From Bacteroidales bacterium (GTDB lineage Bacteria; Bacteroidota; Bacteroidia; Bacteroidales; F082): a stretch of 55,674 bases of DNA. Where the stretch lies: NCBI GenBank assembly GCA_017645275.1, contig JAGCPH010000018.1:1-55674 (forward strand), read 5' to 3'. The translations under genes and the position numbers were made by a program. Under the pieces are notes generated by a model, which was given only the letters and a program-made list of their open reading frames with translations, was not told the origin of the DNA and did not search any database. Shown one piece after another: positions 47,217-55,674 of this stretch (position 1 is the first letter of the stretch; every line of letters begins with the position of its first letter).

Positions 47217-50200
47217 ATGAAACGTATCTTTACATTGATGATCACAGCAGTTATGCTGATGATTACAAGCCTCGCCTGGGGACAGACGAGAGAAGAGGTG
47301 GTAGCATACACCTTGGACGGCACCATAACAGGGGGCTCATCAGGTTATGCAACAGAAAGTGAAATCACCCAGAACAATCTCACATGGAAAGTCATGGCTA
47401 ACACCACAATGAATCCATGGCGTATAGGCGGTAAGAATATTACCGATGAGGATCGTCCTGTTTATTCAACGGGTACATTGTCTGACAACATCACAAAAAT
47501 TGTTGTCACTCACGGTGCTGCAAGTAGCATTACAGTAAACTCAATGACACTTGTGGTTTCATCGAATGCTGATTTCAGCAATCCCACAAGCACATTGACT
47601 GGAGATTTCGAGGCAAATACGACAACTACATTCAACAGACCAGCAGCAACTGACTGGACTAATAAGTATTACAAGATCATATACAATGTTTCAGTGTCAG
47701 GTAATACCAACAGATTCATACAGTTCAATTCAGCTGTGTTTTACAAAGAGAGTGGTGGTCAGCAGACTGTGGCGACACCGACATTCTCTCCAGCTGCAGG
47801 CACATACAATGAAGCCCAGAATGTGACGATAAGCTGCACAACAGCAGGTGCGACCATTTATTACACAACAAACGGCGACACGCCAACAACATCAAGTTTA
47901 GTCTACTCCACTCCTATCGCTATCAGCACAACCACAACAGTGAAGGCTATGGCAGTTAAGACAGGAATGGACAACAGTTCGGTGGCAACAGCGACATACA
48001 CCATTCAGCAAATACCGACAATCACGACAATTGCTGGTTTGTGGGAGTTTGCCGCTACAGCTGGCAGCAGCACCCCAAGTCAGCCAAACGCCAATGTGAC
48101 ATTCAACGACTGGTATGTGACTGGTGTGAAGAGCTCTCAGGTATGCGTTTCAGACGGTCAATATGGTTTTGTGATTTACCAGTCAAGTCACGGTTTTGTG
48201 GCAGGCGACAAGCTGAGCGGTACTGTGGCATGTAAAGTTTTGATGTATCAGAACCATTATGCTGAAGTAATGGGTGTCAAGGCCAGCGACCTCACTGTCG
48301 TATCAGGACAAGAGATGCCTGTATTGACAACAACCATTGCCGCATTGGAAGTCAGAAACTACGGAACAGCCATCGACCTCGGCACATGCTCATATAACGG
48401 AATCAAGTTCTATGATGCGGCTGGCGACTCAATAGCTCTGTACAACAACTTCAACGTCAATCCAAACCCGATCAATTCATTGGTAGCAGGCAAGCAATAC
48501 AATGTAAAAGGTGTTTCGATCATCTATTGGCAAAGCAACAACCAGACTCAGCAGATTGCCCCACGCAGCGCTGACGACTTCGAGGAAGTTGTAGGACCTA
48601 CAGAGCAGGTGGCCACACCTACTTTCACACCTGTTGAAGGCACTTACACCGAGGCACAGGATGTAACAATCTCAACAACGACTGAAGGCGCAACCATCTA
48701 CTACACTTTGGATGGAACAACACCTACCACAAACAGTTCTGTTTATTCAACAGCTATCACTATCAGCGAGACAACGACAGTGAAGGCATTTGCTGTGAAA
48801 GCCGACATGATTGACAGTGAGGTTGCTACAGCGGAATATACAATCAATATTGTGCCTCCAACCCCAACAGAGACATCATACAAGTTGATCACCAATGCCA
48901 ACGCACTTATTTCGGGCGACAAATATATTATCGTCGGTATTAAAGGCGAGACATACAAGGCTTTAGGAAAACAAAGCACTAACAACAGACCGGCAGTCAC
49001 CGTGACACCATCAAACGATACAATAACAGTGACACCTGCTTCAGCAGCGGGCGAAGATGCCGTTTACGAACTCACATTGGGTCAGGAAGGCAATTATTGG
49101 ACATTGTATGACGCAGCAAACGAAGGTTATTTGTATGCCGCAAGTTCATCAGCTAACCATTTGAAGGTTCAAGCCGAAAACGATGCCAACGGACAGTGGA
49201 CCATTGAGATCGCATCGAGCGGTGTGGCCACCATCAAGGCACAGGGCACCAACACACGCAACTGGTTAAGACTCAACAGCAGCGGTTCACCATTCTCATG
49301 CTATGCATCAGGTCAGGCGGATGTATATCTGTACAAAGCTGGCGACGTTCCGACACCTCCTGCACCTTCATATTATAATGTAAGTGTAGCTCAAGGTATC
49401 ACCAACGGTACTGTGACTGTCAACCCGACAACGGCATTGGAAGGCGACACCATCACAGTAACAGCCACACCAGCACTAGGCTATGAGTTGGCAATGTTAA
49501 CATACACATACGGTCAGACCACAAACAACATAGACCAGACCACGATGAAGTTCCTCATGCCGGCATCTGATGTCACAGTCAATGCCACATTCACCGAGAT
49601 GGACGCTGTTGCAACTCCTACATTCACACCGGCAGCAGGTTTATACATCAGCGCACAGACAGTCACATTGGAATGTGCCACTGAAGGAGCAACAATTTAC
49701 TACACCACCGACGGCACAGAACCTACGACATCAAGTACTGTTTATGCCGAGCCATTCACTGTAAGCATGACTACAACTGTCAAGGCATTTGCAGCTAAGG
49801 AAGGCATGAACAACAGTGCGGTTGCTACGGCAGAATACACCATCATCGAGGTGATGACAATTGCATCAGCAAGAGCTTTGGCTGTCAACGAGTACGCATT
49901 GGTACAAGGTATTGTGACATTCATCGACGGCAGAAATATTTACGTACAAGACGCGACAGCAGGTATTGATTTATTCCTTAACAGTAATACAGTGCCAACG
50001 ACATTAGCCATCGGCGACATGGTGAAAGCATATGGTAAAGTTGCTGTTTACAACGGTCTTGTCGAGCTTTCGAGCATAAACGGAGGCAACGAGAACCAGT
50101 TCCTCGTCTTGTCGAGCGGCAACCCACTCCCATTGGCAGTGAAGACCATAGCTGAGATTTTGGAAGACGCAGCAGGCGACAACATGTTGCAGTCGACACG

Positions 50201-53200
50201 CGTTCAGATTGTCGACGCTATCTGCGGAACCATCAACACTGCAAACAACACACCTATCACACAAGGTGAAAGCACATTGAACATTTACAAGATGCCAGTC
50301 GTAACAGGTCTTATGGAAGGCGACATCATGACTGTTATCGGTGTCATCGGATGCCATAACGCTCCACAACTCCGCGTCAACAGCGCAGACGACGTCACAT
50401 TCACACATCCGGCAGGCATCACCGTCAATCCGACAGCATTGTCAGGATTCAACTACGTGTATGAAGAAGGTCCGTCGACAGTTAAGACTTTCAACATCAG
50501 CGCAATAAGCCTTGGTGCTCCTACATACATTTACGCATCTGAGAACTACGAGATCTCATCATTCCCAGGCGAGAGTTTCTATCCTGAGAGTTTGATTACC
50601 ATCAACACCTACACTGGAGTGTACAACTACACCATCAAGGTGAGACTCAAAGCAGGTCTTGAAATTGGCGAATACAACGAATACATCACTATTTGCGAGG
50701 AAGAGCTCGACACTATGTACATTGCTTTAAGCGGAAATGTGACAAGCACTCCGCCTCAGCCACAGGGCGACTACACACGCGTGAGCGACCTCTCACAACT
50801 GACAAGCGGCTCGAAAGTCATCTTCGCTGCACGTTTCGATGAAAACGCAGACCAATATTATGCAATGACAGCACAGGCCTCTGGCAAGCCTGAAGGCGTG
50901 TTGTTCACAAGTATTCCTGACAACAACGGCGAGACATTGCCAGCTGAGATCACTGATGCAGAAGACACATTCTACTGGACAGTGGAAGTCGACGGTGCCA
51001 ACTACACCTTCACCAATGCCAATGGCGACGTGCTTGGCTATAACAGCAGCACCAACTTCGCGACAGGCGGCGACAACACTGCATGGACCATCACATTCCA
51101 GACTTCTGAAGCCACCGCAATGGTTCCTGAATACAGTGCATTTGTGATCAACAACGTGAACACACCTGTGAGAGCGTTCGCTTTGAACAGCAACCACAAC
51201 TACGGTGCGTACCACACACAAAATATGGCAGCAGACAACTACAACTTCTTTATCGATATGTTCGCCACAACAGGCGGCGGCACTCTGACATGCGCCACTC
51301 CGACATTCACGCCAGAAGCTGGCACATACTATGAGGCACAGACAGTCACTATCGCATGCGCCACAGCAGATGCTACTATTTACTACACATTAGACGGCAC
51401 CGAGCCAGATGAGAACAGCGCAGTTTACAGCGAGCCTATCGCAGTAGCTGAAAGCATGACCATCAAGGCAATTGCTATGAAAGAAGGCTATGAAAACAGC
51501 AACGTTGCGACAGCGGAATACACTATTATATTAGGTGCTGTCACCATCTTCGAGCAAGACTGGGAAGGCGACATGAACGGCTGGACATTTGTCACTGTTG
51601 AAGGCGGCAAGCCATGGGCTATCGGTCAAAACAGCGGTAACCACTACGCTTATGCCAACGGCTACAACGGCGGCGTCAACGAGCAGTGGTGCATCTCCCC
51701 TGCTTTCAGCCTTGACATTTACAGCAATGTGAGCTTGAACTTCAGAAACGCAAAGAACTACACAGGTCCTGACATGGAGCTGTTCTTCTCGAACGATTAC
51801 GATGGCGCAGACCCGACAGCGGCAACATGGGTAGCTCTTGAGTTCGTCAAATCGACAGGTTCATACGCATGGACTGAGTCTGGCAATATAGACCTTGCCA
51901 ACTTCACTGGCGATGAGTGCTACATCGGATTCAAGTACACCTCAACAGAGACCGAGGCGGCAGCATGGGAAATCGATGACGTGACACTCATGGGATTCAC
52001 GACAGATCCATATCTGACAGTGACACCTAATGCTTTGTCAGGCTTCACCTATATCGTTGGAAACGGTCCATCACAGGTACAGACATTCACTGTTTCAGGC
52101 GGCAACTTGCCTCCAGCGCCAGGCGGATCTACTGGTGGTATTACTATCACATGCAGCAACACCCATTATGAATTCTCACTCGACGGAGAAGTATTCTGGC
52201 CTTATACTATTGCCATCCAAGCTACTGGAACCCTTGAACCCACTACACTTTATGTAAGACTCGAGGCAGGTTTGTATGTCGGTCAGTGGGACGGCGTTGT
52301 CACCTTTGAGGACGGTGGTTTAGAAGTGACTGCAACCGTAAGCGGCACTGTGGCAGAAGAACCTATTCCTGGTGGCGACTGGAACCGCATCCTCTCACTC
52401 GCTGATCTTGAAGACGGCGACCAGGTCATCATCGCATCACGTTACGACGCCACAATTGGCGACGGCTACTATGCAATGACTGCAGGCGTTTCAGGCAAAC
52501 CTGACGGCGTGTTGTTCACATCAGTCAACGATGGCGGTGTTGAGAAATTGCCAACGGAGATTGCTGACGATGCCGACACATATCTGTGGAACGTGACATT
52601 GAACGGCGATGTTATCACATTGACAAATGCGGCTGGCGACATGCTCGGATACAGCAGCAGCACCAACTTCGCAGCCAACACAAGCACCGATTGGAACATC
52701 GCACTCGAGACATCAGAGGAAGGTGCTTTGATACCTAACTACACAGGATTCGTAATCACCAATGCCGAGACAACCAATAGAGGTGTCGCAAAGAACGCAT
52801 CGAACAAGTTTGGAGCTTACGCTACAAGCAACATCAGCAATCCTGACTACAACTTCTATCTCGACCTGTTCGTGTATGGCGGCTCGGTGACACCGACAGT
52901 GGCAACACCAGTATTCAGCATACCTTCAGGCACATACTACGAGACCATCGAGGTTGAAATCACATGCGCAACCGAAGGTGCGACAATCTATTACACCACC
53001 GACGGCAGCGACCCGACAGCTGAGTCAGAGATTTATGCAGAGCCAATCGTTGTGGAAAGCGACATGACCATCAAGGCCATCGCAATGATGGAAGGATACG
53101 ACAACAGCGCCATTGCGACAGCAAGCTACGTCATCATGGGTGATGTTGACATCATCTTGAGCCAAGACTGGGAAGGCGAAATGGACGGCTGGACATTCGT

Positions 53201-53879
53201 GACTATCGAAGGCAATAAGCCATGGGTCGTCAACGAGCATAACGGCAACCATTACGCCAACGCCAACGGCTACGGCGACGATGTCGACAACGAGCAGTGG
53301 TGCATCTCCCCTGCCTTCGACCTCAGCAACCGTGACGAGCGCAACGTGACGTTGACATTCAAGAATGCAATGAAGTTCAACGGTCCAGCACTCGAGCTTT
53401 ACGTCTCTGATGACTACGACGGACAAGATCCCACAGCCGCCACATGGGAGCCATTGGAGTACATCGCATCAGAAGGCAACTACGTATGGACAGAGTCTGG
53501 CGAGATTTCACTCAACGAATACGCCGGTTCGAGCAGTTGCCACATCGGATTCCGTTACATCAGCACCATCGACGAAGGCGCTGCATCATGGGAAATCGAC
53601 GACATCTTGATTGTGGCTGACAAGTACGATAACGTGGTCACATCTGAGACATCGCTCAACGTCGAAGTCTGGAACAACTACAATGCTCTGATGATTTCGA
53701 ACGACAGCGACAGCAAGCTCGACGTGGTGGTTTACAACATCGTTGGACAGCCGGTGTTGAGCGAGACCGTCGCCACAGGCACCAGCACCATCCGTCACGA
53801 CCTCGTTGAAGGCGTCTACATCGTGAGAGTCGCCAATGGCAAGGATATGAAGGGAATCAAAGTGGTTGTTAGACGTTAG
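47217..53879 (+). CDS. Giant T9SS-secreted adhesin-like protein with five chitobiase-C-terminal-type repeats
   Basis: A 2220-aa surface protein. Signal peptide ends LAWGQ. An N-terminal beta-rich module (about 25-180) is shared with the 22741 protein. Five CHB_HEX_C-type Ig repeats start near 183, 464, 797, 1359 and 1894 (consensus VATPTF.PA.GTY..AQ.VT; GATIYYT.DG). An OB-like segment (about 880-1060; TIASARALAVNEYALVQGIV) and two cleaved-adhesin/choice-of-anchor J domains (near 1442 and 1980, QDWEG-MNGWTFVT) follow. The end is a type A T9SS sorting domain. About 1.6 kb (50420-52015) is duplicated in tandem as 52015-53640. Probably a surface adhesin or glycan-binding protein. Confidence 0.9.
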   Translation: MKRIFTLMITAVMLMITSLAWGQTREEVVAYTLDGTITGGSSGYATESEITQNNLTWKVMANTTMNPWRIGGKNITDEDRPVYSTGTLSDNITKIVVTHGAASSITVNSMTLVVSSNADFSNPTSTLTGDFEANTTTTFNRPAATDWTNKYYKIIYNVSVSGNTNRFIQFNSAVFYKESGGQQTVATPTFSPAAGTYNEAQNVTISCTTAGATIYYTTNGDTPTTSSLVYSTPIAISTTTTVKAMAVKTGMDNSSVATATYTIQQIPTITTIAGLWEFAATAGSSTPSQPNANVTFNDWYVTGVKSSQVCVSDGQYGFVIYQSSHGFVAGDKLSGTVACKVLMYQNHYAEVMGVKASDLTVVSGQEMPVLTTTIAALEVRNYGTAIDLGTCSYNGIKFYDAAGDSIALYNNFNVNPNPINSLVAGKQYNVKGVSIIYWQSNNQTQQIAPRSADDFEEVVGPTEQVATPTFTPVEGTYTEAQDVTISTTTEGATIYYTLDGTTPTTNSSVYSTAITISETTTVKAFAVKADMIDSEVATAEYTINIVPPTPTETSYKLITNANALISGDKYIIVGIKGETYKALGKQSTNNRPAVTVTPSNDTITVTPASAAGEDAVYELTLGQEGNYWTLYDAANEGYLYAASSSANHLKVQAENDANGQWTIEIASSGVATIKAQGTNTRNWLRLNSSGSPFSCYASGQADVYLYKAGDVPTPPAPSYYNVSVAQGITNGTVTVNPTTALEGDTITVTATPALGYELAMLTYTYGQTTNNIDQTTMKFLMPASDVTVNATFTEMDAVATPTFTPAAGLYISAQTVTLECATEGATIYYTTDGTEPTTSSTVYAEPFTVSMTTTVKAFAAKEGMNNSAVATAEYTIIEVMTIASARALAVNEYALVQGIVTFIDGRNIYVQDATAGIDLFLNSNTVPTTLAIGDMVKAYGKVAVYNGLVELSSINGGNENQFLVLSSGNPLPLAVKTIAEILEDAAGDNMLQSTRVQIVDAICGTINTANNTPITQGESTLNIYKMPVVTGLMEGDIMTVIGVIGCHNAPQLRVNSADDVTFTHPAGITVNPTALSGFNYVYEEGPSTVKTFNISAISLGAPTYIYASENYEISSFPGESFYPESLITINTYTGVYNYTIKVRLKAGLEIGEYNEYITICEEELDTMYIALSGNVTSTPPQPQGDYTRVSDLSQLTSGSKVIFAARFDENADQYYAMTAQASGKPEGVLFTSIPDNNGETLPAEITDAEDTFYWTVEVDGANYTFTNANGDVLGYNSSTNFATGGDNTAWTITFQTSEATAMVPEYSAFVINNVNTPVRAFALNSNHNYGAYHTQNMAADNYNFFIDMFATTGGGTLTCATPTFTPEAGTYYEAQTVTIACATADATIYYTLDGTEPDENSAVYSEPIAVAESMTIKAIAMKEGYENSNVATAEYTIILGAVTIFEQDWEGDMNGWTFVTVEGGKPWAIGQNSGNHYAYANGYNGGVNEQWCISPAFSLDIYSNVSLNFRNAKNYTGPDMELFFSNDYDGADPTAATWVALEFVKSTGSYAWTESGNIDLANFTGDECYIGFKYTSTETEAAAWEIDDVTLMGFTTDPYLTVTPNALSGFTYIVGNGPSQVQTFTVSGGNLPPAPGGSTGGITITCSNTHYEFSLDGEVFWPYTIAIQATGTLEPTTLYVRLEAGLYVGQWDGVVTFEDGGLEVTATVSGTVAEEPIPGGDWNRILSLADLEDGDQVIIASRYDATIGDGYYAMTAGVSGKPDGVLFTSVNDGGVEKLPTEIADDADTYLWNVTLNGDVITLTNAAGDMLGYSSSTNFAANTSTDWNIALETSEEGALIPNYTGFVITNAETTNRGVAKNASNKFGAYATSNISNPDYNFYLDLFVYGGSVTPTVATPVFSIPSGTYYETIEVEITCATEGATIYYTTDGSDPTAESEIYAEPIVVESDMTIKAIAMMEGYDNSAIATASYVIMGDVDIILSQDWEGEMDGWTFVTIEGNKPWVVNEHNGNHYANANGYGDDVDNEQWCISPAFDLSNRDERNVTLTFKNAMKFNGPALELYVSDDYDGQDPTAATWEPLEYIASEGNYVWTESGEISLNEYAGSSSCHIGFRYISTIDEGAASWEIDDILIVADKYDNVVTSETSLNVEVWNNYNALMISNDSDSKLDVVVYNIVGQPVLSETVATGTSTIRHDLVEGVYIVRVANGKDMKGIKVVVRR

Positions 53880-54022: not shown

Positions 54023-55240
54023 ATGAAAAAGTCATTACTCCTTATCTTATTGGTTATCAGCAGTCTGATATGCTCGGCACAATTGCAAGTGAAAGAAGGC
54101 TCATTCAAGAAAGTTGATGGCTTTGTAAATATCAACATTGAAAAGATGTATGACGACAACGACAAGCCGTATGCTGTTCTGAAGATAAAAACAGAGAATA
54201 TCAACGACAAACAGCGTCGCGAACTGAGTTTCGGTGGCGATGCCCAGACGTTTTTCGAGACTGAATACAAAGACGGCGAAGTATGGCTCTACATCAGCTA
54301 TTACGCCACTTTCCTGAAGATTTCGCATCCCGATTTGAGCTCGACGGAGTTTTGGTTTCCATTCGATATGGAGCCGAAACGAGGTTACGAGCTGACGTTG
54401 GTGAATAAGCCAGCATTAGATGAGGCTGCAATTATAAGCATAATCGACCAACGGCTTGAAAACACATCGAATATAGCTGCAAATCCCGAGGATTTCGGTT
54501 ACATCGTTGTAAAAACAGGCTCACTCGAAGGTGCCACAGTGTATATCGATGGCGAAGAGATGGAGATGAAGACTCCTTTTGTGAGCAACCCTATTGAACA
54601 GGGACCACACAAAATCAGAGTTGTGAAGGATGGATACGAGACATTCTCGGATATTGTTGCCGTTGAAGGGAAAGGAATGAGAACGGTTAATGTGGAGTTG
54701 AAAAAAGAGAAAAAAGTAAATACTGTAAGAAAGAAAGGATTTGTATTTATTCCAGAGATAAGTGCGGCATTAGAAATTGGTTTCCATGATGATGCTGTCA
54801 TTGACAATTACACAATGATTATGCCCCAATTAAATATTGAATATATGTTTGGACCCAAATTTGGAATTGGAGTCGGTACTGGAGTGATGTATTTTAATAA
54901 TAGTTTTGATGCAGTCCCTATTTATGCCCAGATTTCATATTATTTAAACAACAGGAAAATTGCTCCTTTTATTAATTTAAAAATAGGTAGTTCAATTAAT
55001 CTAGGAACCCATTTATACGAAAATGGCAACAGATATATTTATGATTATAAAACTTCAGGTTTGACTGGCGCTATTACTATAGGTGTTAATACAAACCATT
55101 CAAGAATAGGATTATTATTTGATATAGCCAGCTTACAATACAAATATGACTCTGCGGGCACGGATCCTACAGTTAAAGAAAAATACTATTTTATTGGTCT
55201 ATCATACAGTTACATGATTCCATTTGGGAAAAAGGAGTAA
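54023..55240 (+). CDS. PEGA-domain protein with a C-terminal outer-membrane barrel
   Basis: A 405-aa exported protein with signal peptide ending ICSAQ. A lipocalin-like or unknown N-terminal domain (about 20-155) comes first, then a PEGA domain (about 165-240; GATVYIDGEEMEMKTPFVSN, HKIRVVKDGYETFSDIVAVE). The C-terminus from about 250 alternates in the manner of an outer-membrane beta-barrel (IGVGTGVMYFNN; YAQISYYLNNRKIAPFINLK) and ends YSYMIPFGKKE. The last third is more AT-rich than the giant gene upstream. Likely an outer-membrane protein displaying PEGA domains at the surface. Confidence 0.75.
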   Translation: MKKSLLLILLVISSLICSAQLQVKEGSFKKVDGFVNINIEKMYDDNDKPYAVLKIKTENINDKQRRELSFGGDAQTFFETEYKDGEVWLYISYYATFLKISHPDLSSTEFWFPFDMEPKRGYELTLVNKPALDEAAIISIIDQRLENTSNIAANPEDFGYIVVKTGSLEGATVYIDGEEMEMKTPFVSNPIEQGPHKIRVVKDGYETFSDIVAVEGKGMRTVNVELKKEKKVNTVRKKGFVFIPEISAALEIGFHDDAVIDNYTMIMPQLNIEYMFGPKFGIGVGTGVMYFNNSFDAVPIYAQISYYLNNRKIAPFINLKIGSSINLGTHLYENGNRYIYDYKTSGLTGAITIGVNTNHSRIGLLFDIASLQYKYDSAGTDPTVKEKYYFIGLSYSYMIPFGKKE

Positions 55241-55278
55241 TTTTTTTCAAAAAAAGTGTTACATATAAAAAATAATTG

Positions 55279-55286
55279 TATTTTTG
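55279..55286 (+). promoter_or_regulatory. -7 box TATTTTTG for the candidate structured RNA
   Basis: TATTTTTG ends 6 nt before the first paired base of the long closing stem. Confidence 0.6.
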
Positions 55287-55290
55287 CAAT

Positions 55291-55420
55291 GTAGAAAACT
55301 TCTATGGTTCCAAGCACTAATCTCAGGCAGACCGCCGAAATGGTCTGAGATGTTTAAGGAAACGGACGGCGGCAATCCGTTAAAAGTGTGTGCTACTTTT
55401 TCCATAGAAGTTTTCTTTTT
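55291..55420 (+). ncRNA. Candidate multibranched noncoding RNA
   Basis: A plus-strand unit of about 130 nt. P1: AGAAAACTTCTATGG (55293-55307) pairs perfectly with CCATAGAAGTTTTCT (55402-55416). P2: AGCAC (55313-55317) with GTGCT (55390-55394). P3: ATCTC..AGACC (55320-55333, 4-nt bulge) with GGTCTGAGAT (55342-55351). P4: AACGGA (55361-55366) with TCCGTT (55376-55381). The loops of P3 (GCCGAAAT) and P4 (CGGCGGCAA) are complementary over GCCG/CGGC and could kiss. The 3' end is TTTTT. It overlaps the end of the minus-strand gene at 55393. Confidence 0.55.
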
Positions 55421-55674
55421 ATTATATCCTCAGTTTTTCTTGGCTCCGCCGTCTTAACTTCCCAGTATTCGCCAGACAAACACATATCTATTCCAGCGGT
55501 ATAATTCAAATCAGAATTAAAAATAACCAAAAGAATTGAATCGCCAGAACCTTCTCGAATCTGATTATAACCATTTACTACTGCAGAAACAAAGTCAACC
55601 GCTGATAATCCAACTTTTTCCAATTCTATTTTATGACGTCTTTCTATATGTTTCAAATAATTAGGTGTCAAATA
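55393..55674 (-). CDS. C-terminal part of a possible BECR-fold (phage-type) nuclease, 5' end outside window
   Basis: 93 residues up to the window edge; the frame is open there, so the start is not visible. The sequence KHIERRHKIELEKVGLSAVD, then NGYNQIREGSGDSILLVI and YWEVKTAEPRKTEDIIKRKL, ending LLWKK, resembles the PBECR/BECR nuclease domains found at the ends of phage and polymorphic toxin proteins. This is a resemblance from memory. Its last codons are antisense to the 3' arm of the structured RNA, and a copy of the same 15 bases lies inverted at 55293. Confidence 0.45.
   Translation of the reverse strand, partial: YLTPNYLKHIERRHKIELEKVGLSAVDFVSAVVNGYNQIREGSGDSILLVIFNSDLNYTAGIDMCLSGEYWEVKTAEPRKTEDIIKRKLLWKK

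Follow-up and report, generated by a model that had tools for sequence, protein, structure and literature searches.

To our knowledge, toxins guarded by an RNA are known from few families, usually with the RNA upstream. This is its location relative to the toxin in type III toxin-antitoxin systems, of which CptIN and TenpIN are further examples beside ToxIN, while type I toxins are usually small hydrophobic peptides. In the parts of the published accounts on which we draw, ToxI is a co-transcribed RNA pseudoknot, an antitoxin with multiple repeats; type I antitoxins act on the toxin mRNA (PMC4147584); and RCd22 of Clostridioides difficile represses the toxic activity of AbiF in cis and, according to a heading, interacts with the protein (PMC12373285). 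PBECR domains of phages and conjugative elements are described, in the covered part of their survey, as solo versions and as parts of polyvalent proteins (PMC5512222). The words "noncoding" and "non-coding" are absent from the main text of that survey, which, in the part covered, mentions no RNA partner.

The locus described here lies at the end of a 55,674-nucleotide stretch of Bacteroidales DNA, called the window below. As far as the accounts of type III systems go, it shares their logic as we propose it, an endoribonuclease held by a structured RNA, but the RNA is single-copy, has its own TAnnTTTG promoter and is located downstream of the toxin gene in convergent orientation, and the nuclease belongs to the PBECR type. 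The AbiF/RCd22 pair, in the portion of its description used here, likewise consists of one small structured RNA adjoining an abortive-infection-type gene, although RCd22 is upstream, is suggested to be co-transcribed and belongs with another protein family. With type I systems the locus shares an RNA that overlaps the toxin gene from the opposite strand. Judged from sequence comparison, it fairly likely encodes an RNA antitoxin that acts on the nuclease, type-III-like but single-copy and convergent. The arrangement was unreported among the best matches to literature titles and abstracts on PBECR, RNA antitoxins and kissing loops, a collection that covers few subscription papers and no bioRxiv preprints.

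Structured RNA at the end of the window

The window corresponds to contig C14 of a genome with a completeness of 82% and ends inside a minus-strand gene. The features found at this end are as follows.

55279..55286, + strand: TAnnTTTG (-7) element, TATTTTTG, a Bacteroidota-type promoter of the RNA, from the sequence
55293..55420, + strand: structured RNA, class I, its ends placed by the promoter, the closing stem and the T run
55293..55307, + strand: 5' arm of the closing stem P1, a perfect 15-bp inverted repeat with 55402-55416
55402..55416, + strand: 3' arm of P1, antisense to the last codons of the nuclease gene
55313-55317 (AGCAC)/55390-55394, + strand: P2, pairable and invariant in 14 sequences
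55320..55351, + strand: P3 hairpin (55320-55328/55343-55351)
55361..55381, + strand: P4 hairpin (55361-55366/55376-55381)
55332..55337, + strand: kissing loop 1, CCGCCG, partner 55367-55372
55367..55372, + strand: kissing loop 2, CGGCGG, partner 55332-55337
55416..55420, + strand: T run, presumed RNA end, from the sequence
55393..55674, - strand: PBECR3-like nuclease (toxin-like) gene, convergent with the RNA, from the open frame, full-length relatives and the fold

The RNA would be about 130 nt long, with a closing stem of 15 bp and a loop-loop match of 6 bp. Six bases separate TATTTTTG from the start of the 15-bp repeat, and the promoter element is kept across 11 compared sequences. A preliminary description of this DNA had listed the TAnnTTTG, the 6-nt gap, the perfect 15-bp stem and the final T run, all of which are present in the sequence, and the GCCG/CGGC loop pair that it named is real and longer than claimed (CCGCCG/CGGCGG, 6 bp). 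The 3' arm is, as it stated, antisense to the last codons of the opposite-strand gene, which ends at 55393 and overlaps the arm; the identity of the 5' arm to the mRNA is true as well but is a plain consequence of the inverted repeat.

The predicted fold of the window RNA has an energy of -42 kcal/mol (z = -3.25), equalled by 0/200 shuffles, and its score for two hairpins plus a kiss gave a p value of 0.005, the floor with 200 shuffles. Rfam returned no match at gathering score for this RNA, agreeing with the earlier remark that no known family could be seen, nor for the RNAs of 26 further loci, and the sub-threshold matches at the window were at chance level. Positions 54600-55674 contain no repeat array, and a tandem-repeat finder applied to two relatives (L002 and L003) gave only short AT-rich or coding stretches of two to three units. 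Two genes before the RNA, the window encodes a 2220-aa protein with repeated segments (47217-53879, + strand).

Nuclease gene and protein

The 5' part of the nuclease gene runs off the contig end, with 93 residues in the window compared with 120 in the full-length relative L002. The structure model obtained (pLDDT of 94.1) has mostly BECR toxins as best solved neighbors, CdiA-CT toxins included, and Foldseek gave no match at an E value of ≤0.001. Two His columns are invariant and one column is all Ser/Thr in 22/22 PBECR3-like and class II proteins; in the model, H36 lies in the helix at residues 31-40 and T102 in the strand at 97-107.

Pfam assigned L102 to PBECR1 (E value of 1.4e-24) and L098 to PBECR3 (2e-7), and the proteins above its curated cut-off were L102 and L103 (PBECR1) and L098 (PBECR3), with L062 sitting at the PBECR3 cut-off (30 bits). 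The class I proteins are below the cut-off (E values of 0.0054 to 0.016 in three copies), as are L057, L061 and L037 for PBECR, and of two further proteins the class II L043 had no Pfam match of any kind and L055 had no PBECR match. At an E value of ≤1, PBECR1 and PBECR3 were listed by Pfam and no ToxN-type family was. PADLOC-DB gave 0 families for four proteins at the same threshold, and a sequence search of solved structures found only a ribosomal protein (E value of 0.72).

Covariation and coding strand of the class I RNA

A DNA search of 100 genomes, including the source genome, recovered 10 further RNA copies in eight genomes after removal of two 23-nt matches to the promoter only (L010 and L013), and protein searches added three copies (G109, G138 and L017). 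The resulting class I alignment contains 14 sequences, window included, and the relatives are named Bacteroidales, from ruminants and others. Over the 14 sequences 97.9% of the cells pair, and 10 of the 41 pairs are double changed compared to a shuffled mean of 5.1, a count reached by 0/500 shuffles. Here as in the other classes, the alignment in which the pseudoknot pairs were counted had also served to select them. Double changes were found in 2/15 pairs of P1 (99.0% of cells paired), in 5/9 of P3, in 2/6 of P4 and in 1/6 of the kissing helix (97.6% of cells paired), which also has two one-sided changes. P2 never varies among the 14 sequences, hence its lack of covariation signal. The covariation check proposed in the preliminary description thus came out in its favor, with double changes in four of five helices, the loop pair among them. 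An additional measure, the presence of further standard pair types, was not above shuffles (class I, 216/500; class II, 425/500).

At paired positions the ratio of G-U to A-C was 25:3 in class I and 38:5 in class II. Since a G-U pair on the plus strand would be an A-C mismatch on the opposite one, the promoter strand is also the strand with the kept fold. From these alignments the plus strand is the folded product, in a test whose structure was derived on the plus strand and which somewhat favors it.

Convergent promoters past short PBECR genes

Relatives obtained by protein searches were inspected for a TAnnTTTG element on the opposite strand, 50 to 300 nt past the stop codon. It was present at 41/41 loci (33/33 PBECR3-like and 8/8 PBECR1) versus 29/345 control genes, or 17/121 among those with at least 100 nt free downstream; the controls were open frames of at least 100 aa from further DNA stretches and the window. 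A TTG 17 to 20 nt before the element was found at 26/41 loci versus 7/345 controls. The 33/33 do not represent 33 independent events because the loci are related, and the 41 include near-duplicates (e.g., L043/L044), a gene without a start (L099), a domain at the C terminus of an 838-aa frame (L062) and one element located beyond a tRNA gene (L031). At the last of these loci (L031:1321-1528) the class I RNA comes directly after a tRNA-Met gene with no promoter between, and it seems to be read, as if cut, from the tRNA-Met transcript.

Several loci were kept outside the 41: L058 (truncated gene, element at 128 nt), L063 (124-aa frame, element at 356 nt, beyond the limit), L064 and L066 (domain inside long frames, with no element and elements at 108 and 30 nt, respectively), L045 (4043-aa frame, end not reached) and L052 (23-residue match, no element). 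At the downstream end of L066, a CRISPR-like repeat array was seen by eye beside a 525-aa frame with a PBECR-type domain. The PBECR-like L048 to L051, with frames of 227 to 337 aa, had an element at 50 to 300 nt in 0/4 cases (one lies at 27 nt), which confines the convergent rule to short PBECR genes; these four are perhaps a different use of the same domain.

Within the genus, PBECR1 occurs at 66 places in 51/99 genomes. Thirty were examined, the eight above included, and 27/27 of the parsed genes have the convergent element; the remaining three (L196, L197 and L199) were missed by the motif used, and their elements are 62, 47 and 47 nt past the stop, so that two fall short of the 50-nt minimum. 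An order-wide search yielded ten new loci, and 5/5 with a readable gene end were positive (L200, L202, L206, L208 and L209, four of them outside the genus); L201, L203, L204 and L207 (long frames) and L205 (contig end) do not enter this count. One stretch, G095:C266:17514-19128 (L060, L202 and L208), holds three consecutive PBECR genes from two families, one of which has a broken frame, and a convergent TAnnTTTG at each.

RNA classes and the kissing design

Sixteen RNA representatives from these loci are nearly unrelated, with one 12-nt match among them, and about 15 RNA types is the safer number because L182 and L172 still align as variants of a single class. In class II (13 sequences), two hairpins carry the loops CUUGC and GCAAG in 13/13, and double changes occur in 11/24 pairs (none in the invariant loop pair), a number that 0/500 shuffles reach. 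In class VI (18 sequences), 12/20 pairs are double changed, two of them in the loop-loop helix (0/500 shuffles).

When single sequences were scanned for kissing hairpins, the signal was strong in the window, L033 (CCUAC/GUAGG) and L062 (8 bp), borderline in L057, L060 and L061, weak in single class II sequences (0.065 to 0.159) and unsupported in L037, L059 and L098. The combined Fisher p value was ~1.5e-6 over ten types and 2e-5 without the window, taking 10/18 scanned sequences: seven members of counted classes were left out (L034, L039, L042, L056, L101, L103 and L109), and L098 was omitted because its kissing match uses the terminator hairpin. Folding energy alone flags 11/16 representatives (fraction of ≤0.045), L043, L033, L057, L059 and L060 being unremarkable. 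On present evidence, the kissing design is common but not universal.

RNAs retained without a toxin gene

Covariance-model searches of 99 genomes from the genus detected 13 RNAs of class I, spread over 11 genomes, and 23 of class II, one of 24 class II matches (L142, in G125) having been dropped for its missing kissing motif. Of the 13 class I RNAs, nine lie opposite a class I toxin gene, which in the window is truncated at the contig edge, and four have no toxin gene or a remnant only. Of the 23 class II RNAs, 11 lie opposite a full-length toxin gene, another 11 have none or a remnant, and that of L138 faces a gene without a start, so that 16/36 RNAs of the two classes lack an intact toxin gene. 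In the opposite direction, 20/20 class I/II toxin genes of the genus have an RNA, and none was seen without it. For class I, the RNA is beside the nuclease gene in 9/9 cases within the genus, and the absence at orthologues that the preliminary description had named as a possible refutation was not seen. The two loop motifs are kept in all 23 class II RNAs, orphans included. At a dnaE-side locus (a name given by eye), both flanks of the toxin region can be aligned between L003 and L006, and L006 is without the toxin region while its RNA is kept.

Other arrangements were seen in these genomes. Three RNAs are lined up at L011:1281-2292: an orphan of class II, one of class I whose gene is truncated, and one of class II whose gene is intact. 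The orphan class II RNAs of L139 and L147, from different genomes, share a near-identical new 3' extension ending CGAGGATC...GATCCTCG, and at L145:1600-2200 an orphan RNA and a short toxin tail are beside what looks by eye like a serine recombinase frame.

Wider occurrence

The source genome itself has three different modules, each with an RNA: the window, a class II module (L054, G000:C34) and a PBECR1 module (L186, G000:C16). The inverted repeat was also considered as a mobile element that had copied the gene end, a reading that the single class I copy in this genome does not support. A scan of the phylum gave matches in 2/395 genomes, one of them the source genome, and PF18812 was found in 2/198, both within long frames. 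Among phages and plasmids, neither the class II protein L043 nor the PBECR3-like L061 had a match; the PBECR1 protein L102 matched 116 phage records, of which the two examined are large proteins, and no plasmid. Viral contigs searched by tblastn with A3, A6 and L102 gave none. A SAM-II riboswitch is located close to class III modules at L033:1324-1382 (- strand) and L035:1971-2029 (+ strand).

Function of the RNA

Comparative evidence shows the fold of the RNA, and the analysis also shows its strand, the regular association of short PBECR genes with a convergent promoter and an RNA-like stretch, and the retention of RNAs after gene loss. In the mechanism that we propose, a small BECR-type ribonuclease would be harmful to the cell by cutting RNA, and a compact kissing-loop RNA, presumably transcribed separately and tail to tail with the nuclease gene, would bind the nuclease directly and block it. 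The preliminary description had offered three guesses, of which the RNA antitoxin fits best, the antisense regulator poorly, and the mobile-element copy is unsupported. The antisense version would be type-I-like, the RNA pairing with the 3' end or 3' UTR of the toxin mRNA to cause decay or blocked expression, with the hairpins as contact sites. RNA and gene do overlap convergently, which brings with it a possible pairing at the 3' end, and the RNA is loop-rich like known antisense systems. The overlap is probably a by-product of packing, as some classes have no overlap of arm and codons. Pairing between opposite strands needs neither covariation nor kept unpaired bases, and here the arms covary, the unpaired bases are kept, and the loop motifs persist in orphan RNAs without a toxin gene. 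Nor is there an unusual affinity for the toxin start, since the pairing of 14 RNAs with their own starts was equalled or beaten by 36 to 97% of 200 control starts. Start-site antisense being unsupported and covariation being unneeded by antisense, a nuclease-binding RNA is favored, and we consider antisense regulation improbable.

It is also unlikely that, in a defense RNP, the RNA activates the nuclease as a cofactor or aims it as a guide instead of inhibiting it. Its regular pairing with the gene, its compact fold and loops of diverse sequence would suit such a role, which nevertheless predicts the reverse of the observed losses, in which RNAs persist without nuclease and no class I/II nuclease gene is found without RNA. 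This asymmetry is what a guarded harmful nuclease predicts, again favoring a nuclease-binding RNA. The antitoxin reading includes a special case, a decoy mimicking the nuclease substrate, such as part of a tRNA, which draws on the CdiA-CT toxins among the best structural neighbors, as some of these toxins and colicin E5/D cut tRNA; ARAGORN, run on L031 alone, gave only the neighboring tRNA-Met gene beside the RNA, and we give the decoy little credence. Most improbable is a terminator or leftover of convergent transcription without partner function. The closing stem and T run could end a transcript, but the RNA keeps its own promoter and is retained after toxin loss, its inner helices covary, G-U exceeds A-C by the 25:3 and 38:5 given above, and the minus strand has no T run comparable to that of the plus strand.

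Beyond the window, we tentatively propose an unnamed large kind of module, in which short Bacteroidales PBECR nucleases may each be guarded by their own single-copy convergent RNA, with a separate promoter, often a two-hairpin kissing plan and a freely diverging sequence. It might constitute a new toxin-antitoxin type alongside types I and III, in which each RNA co-evolves with its own nuclease. A single rule, to look on the opposite strand immediately downstream of a short PBECR gene, yields many RNAs that are nearly unrelated, so that further searches can enlarge the set and each pair can be tested in turn. If true, this would explain what solo PBECR proteins do and supply a natural set of RNA-protein pairs that differ in specificity.
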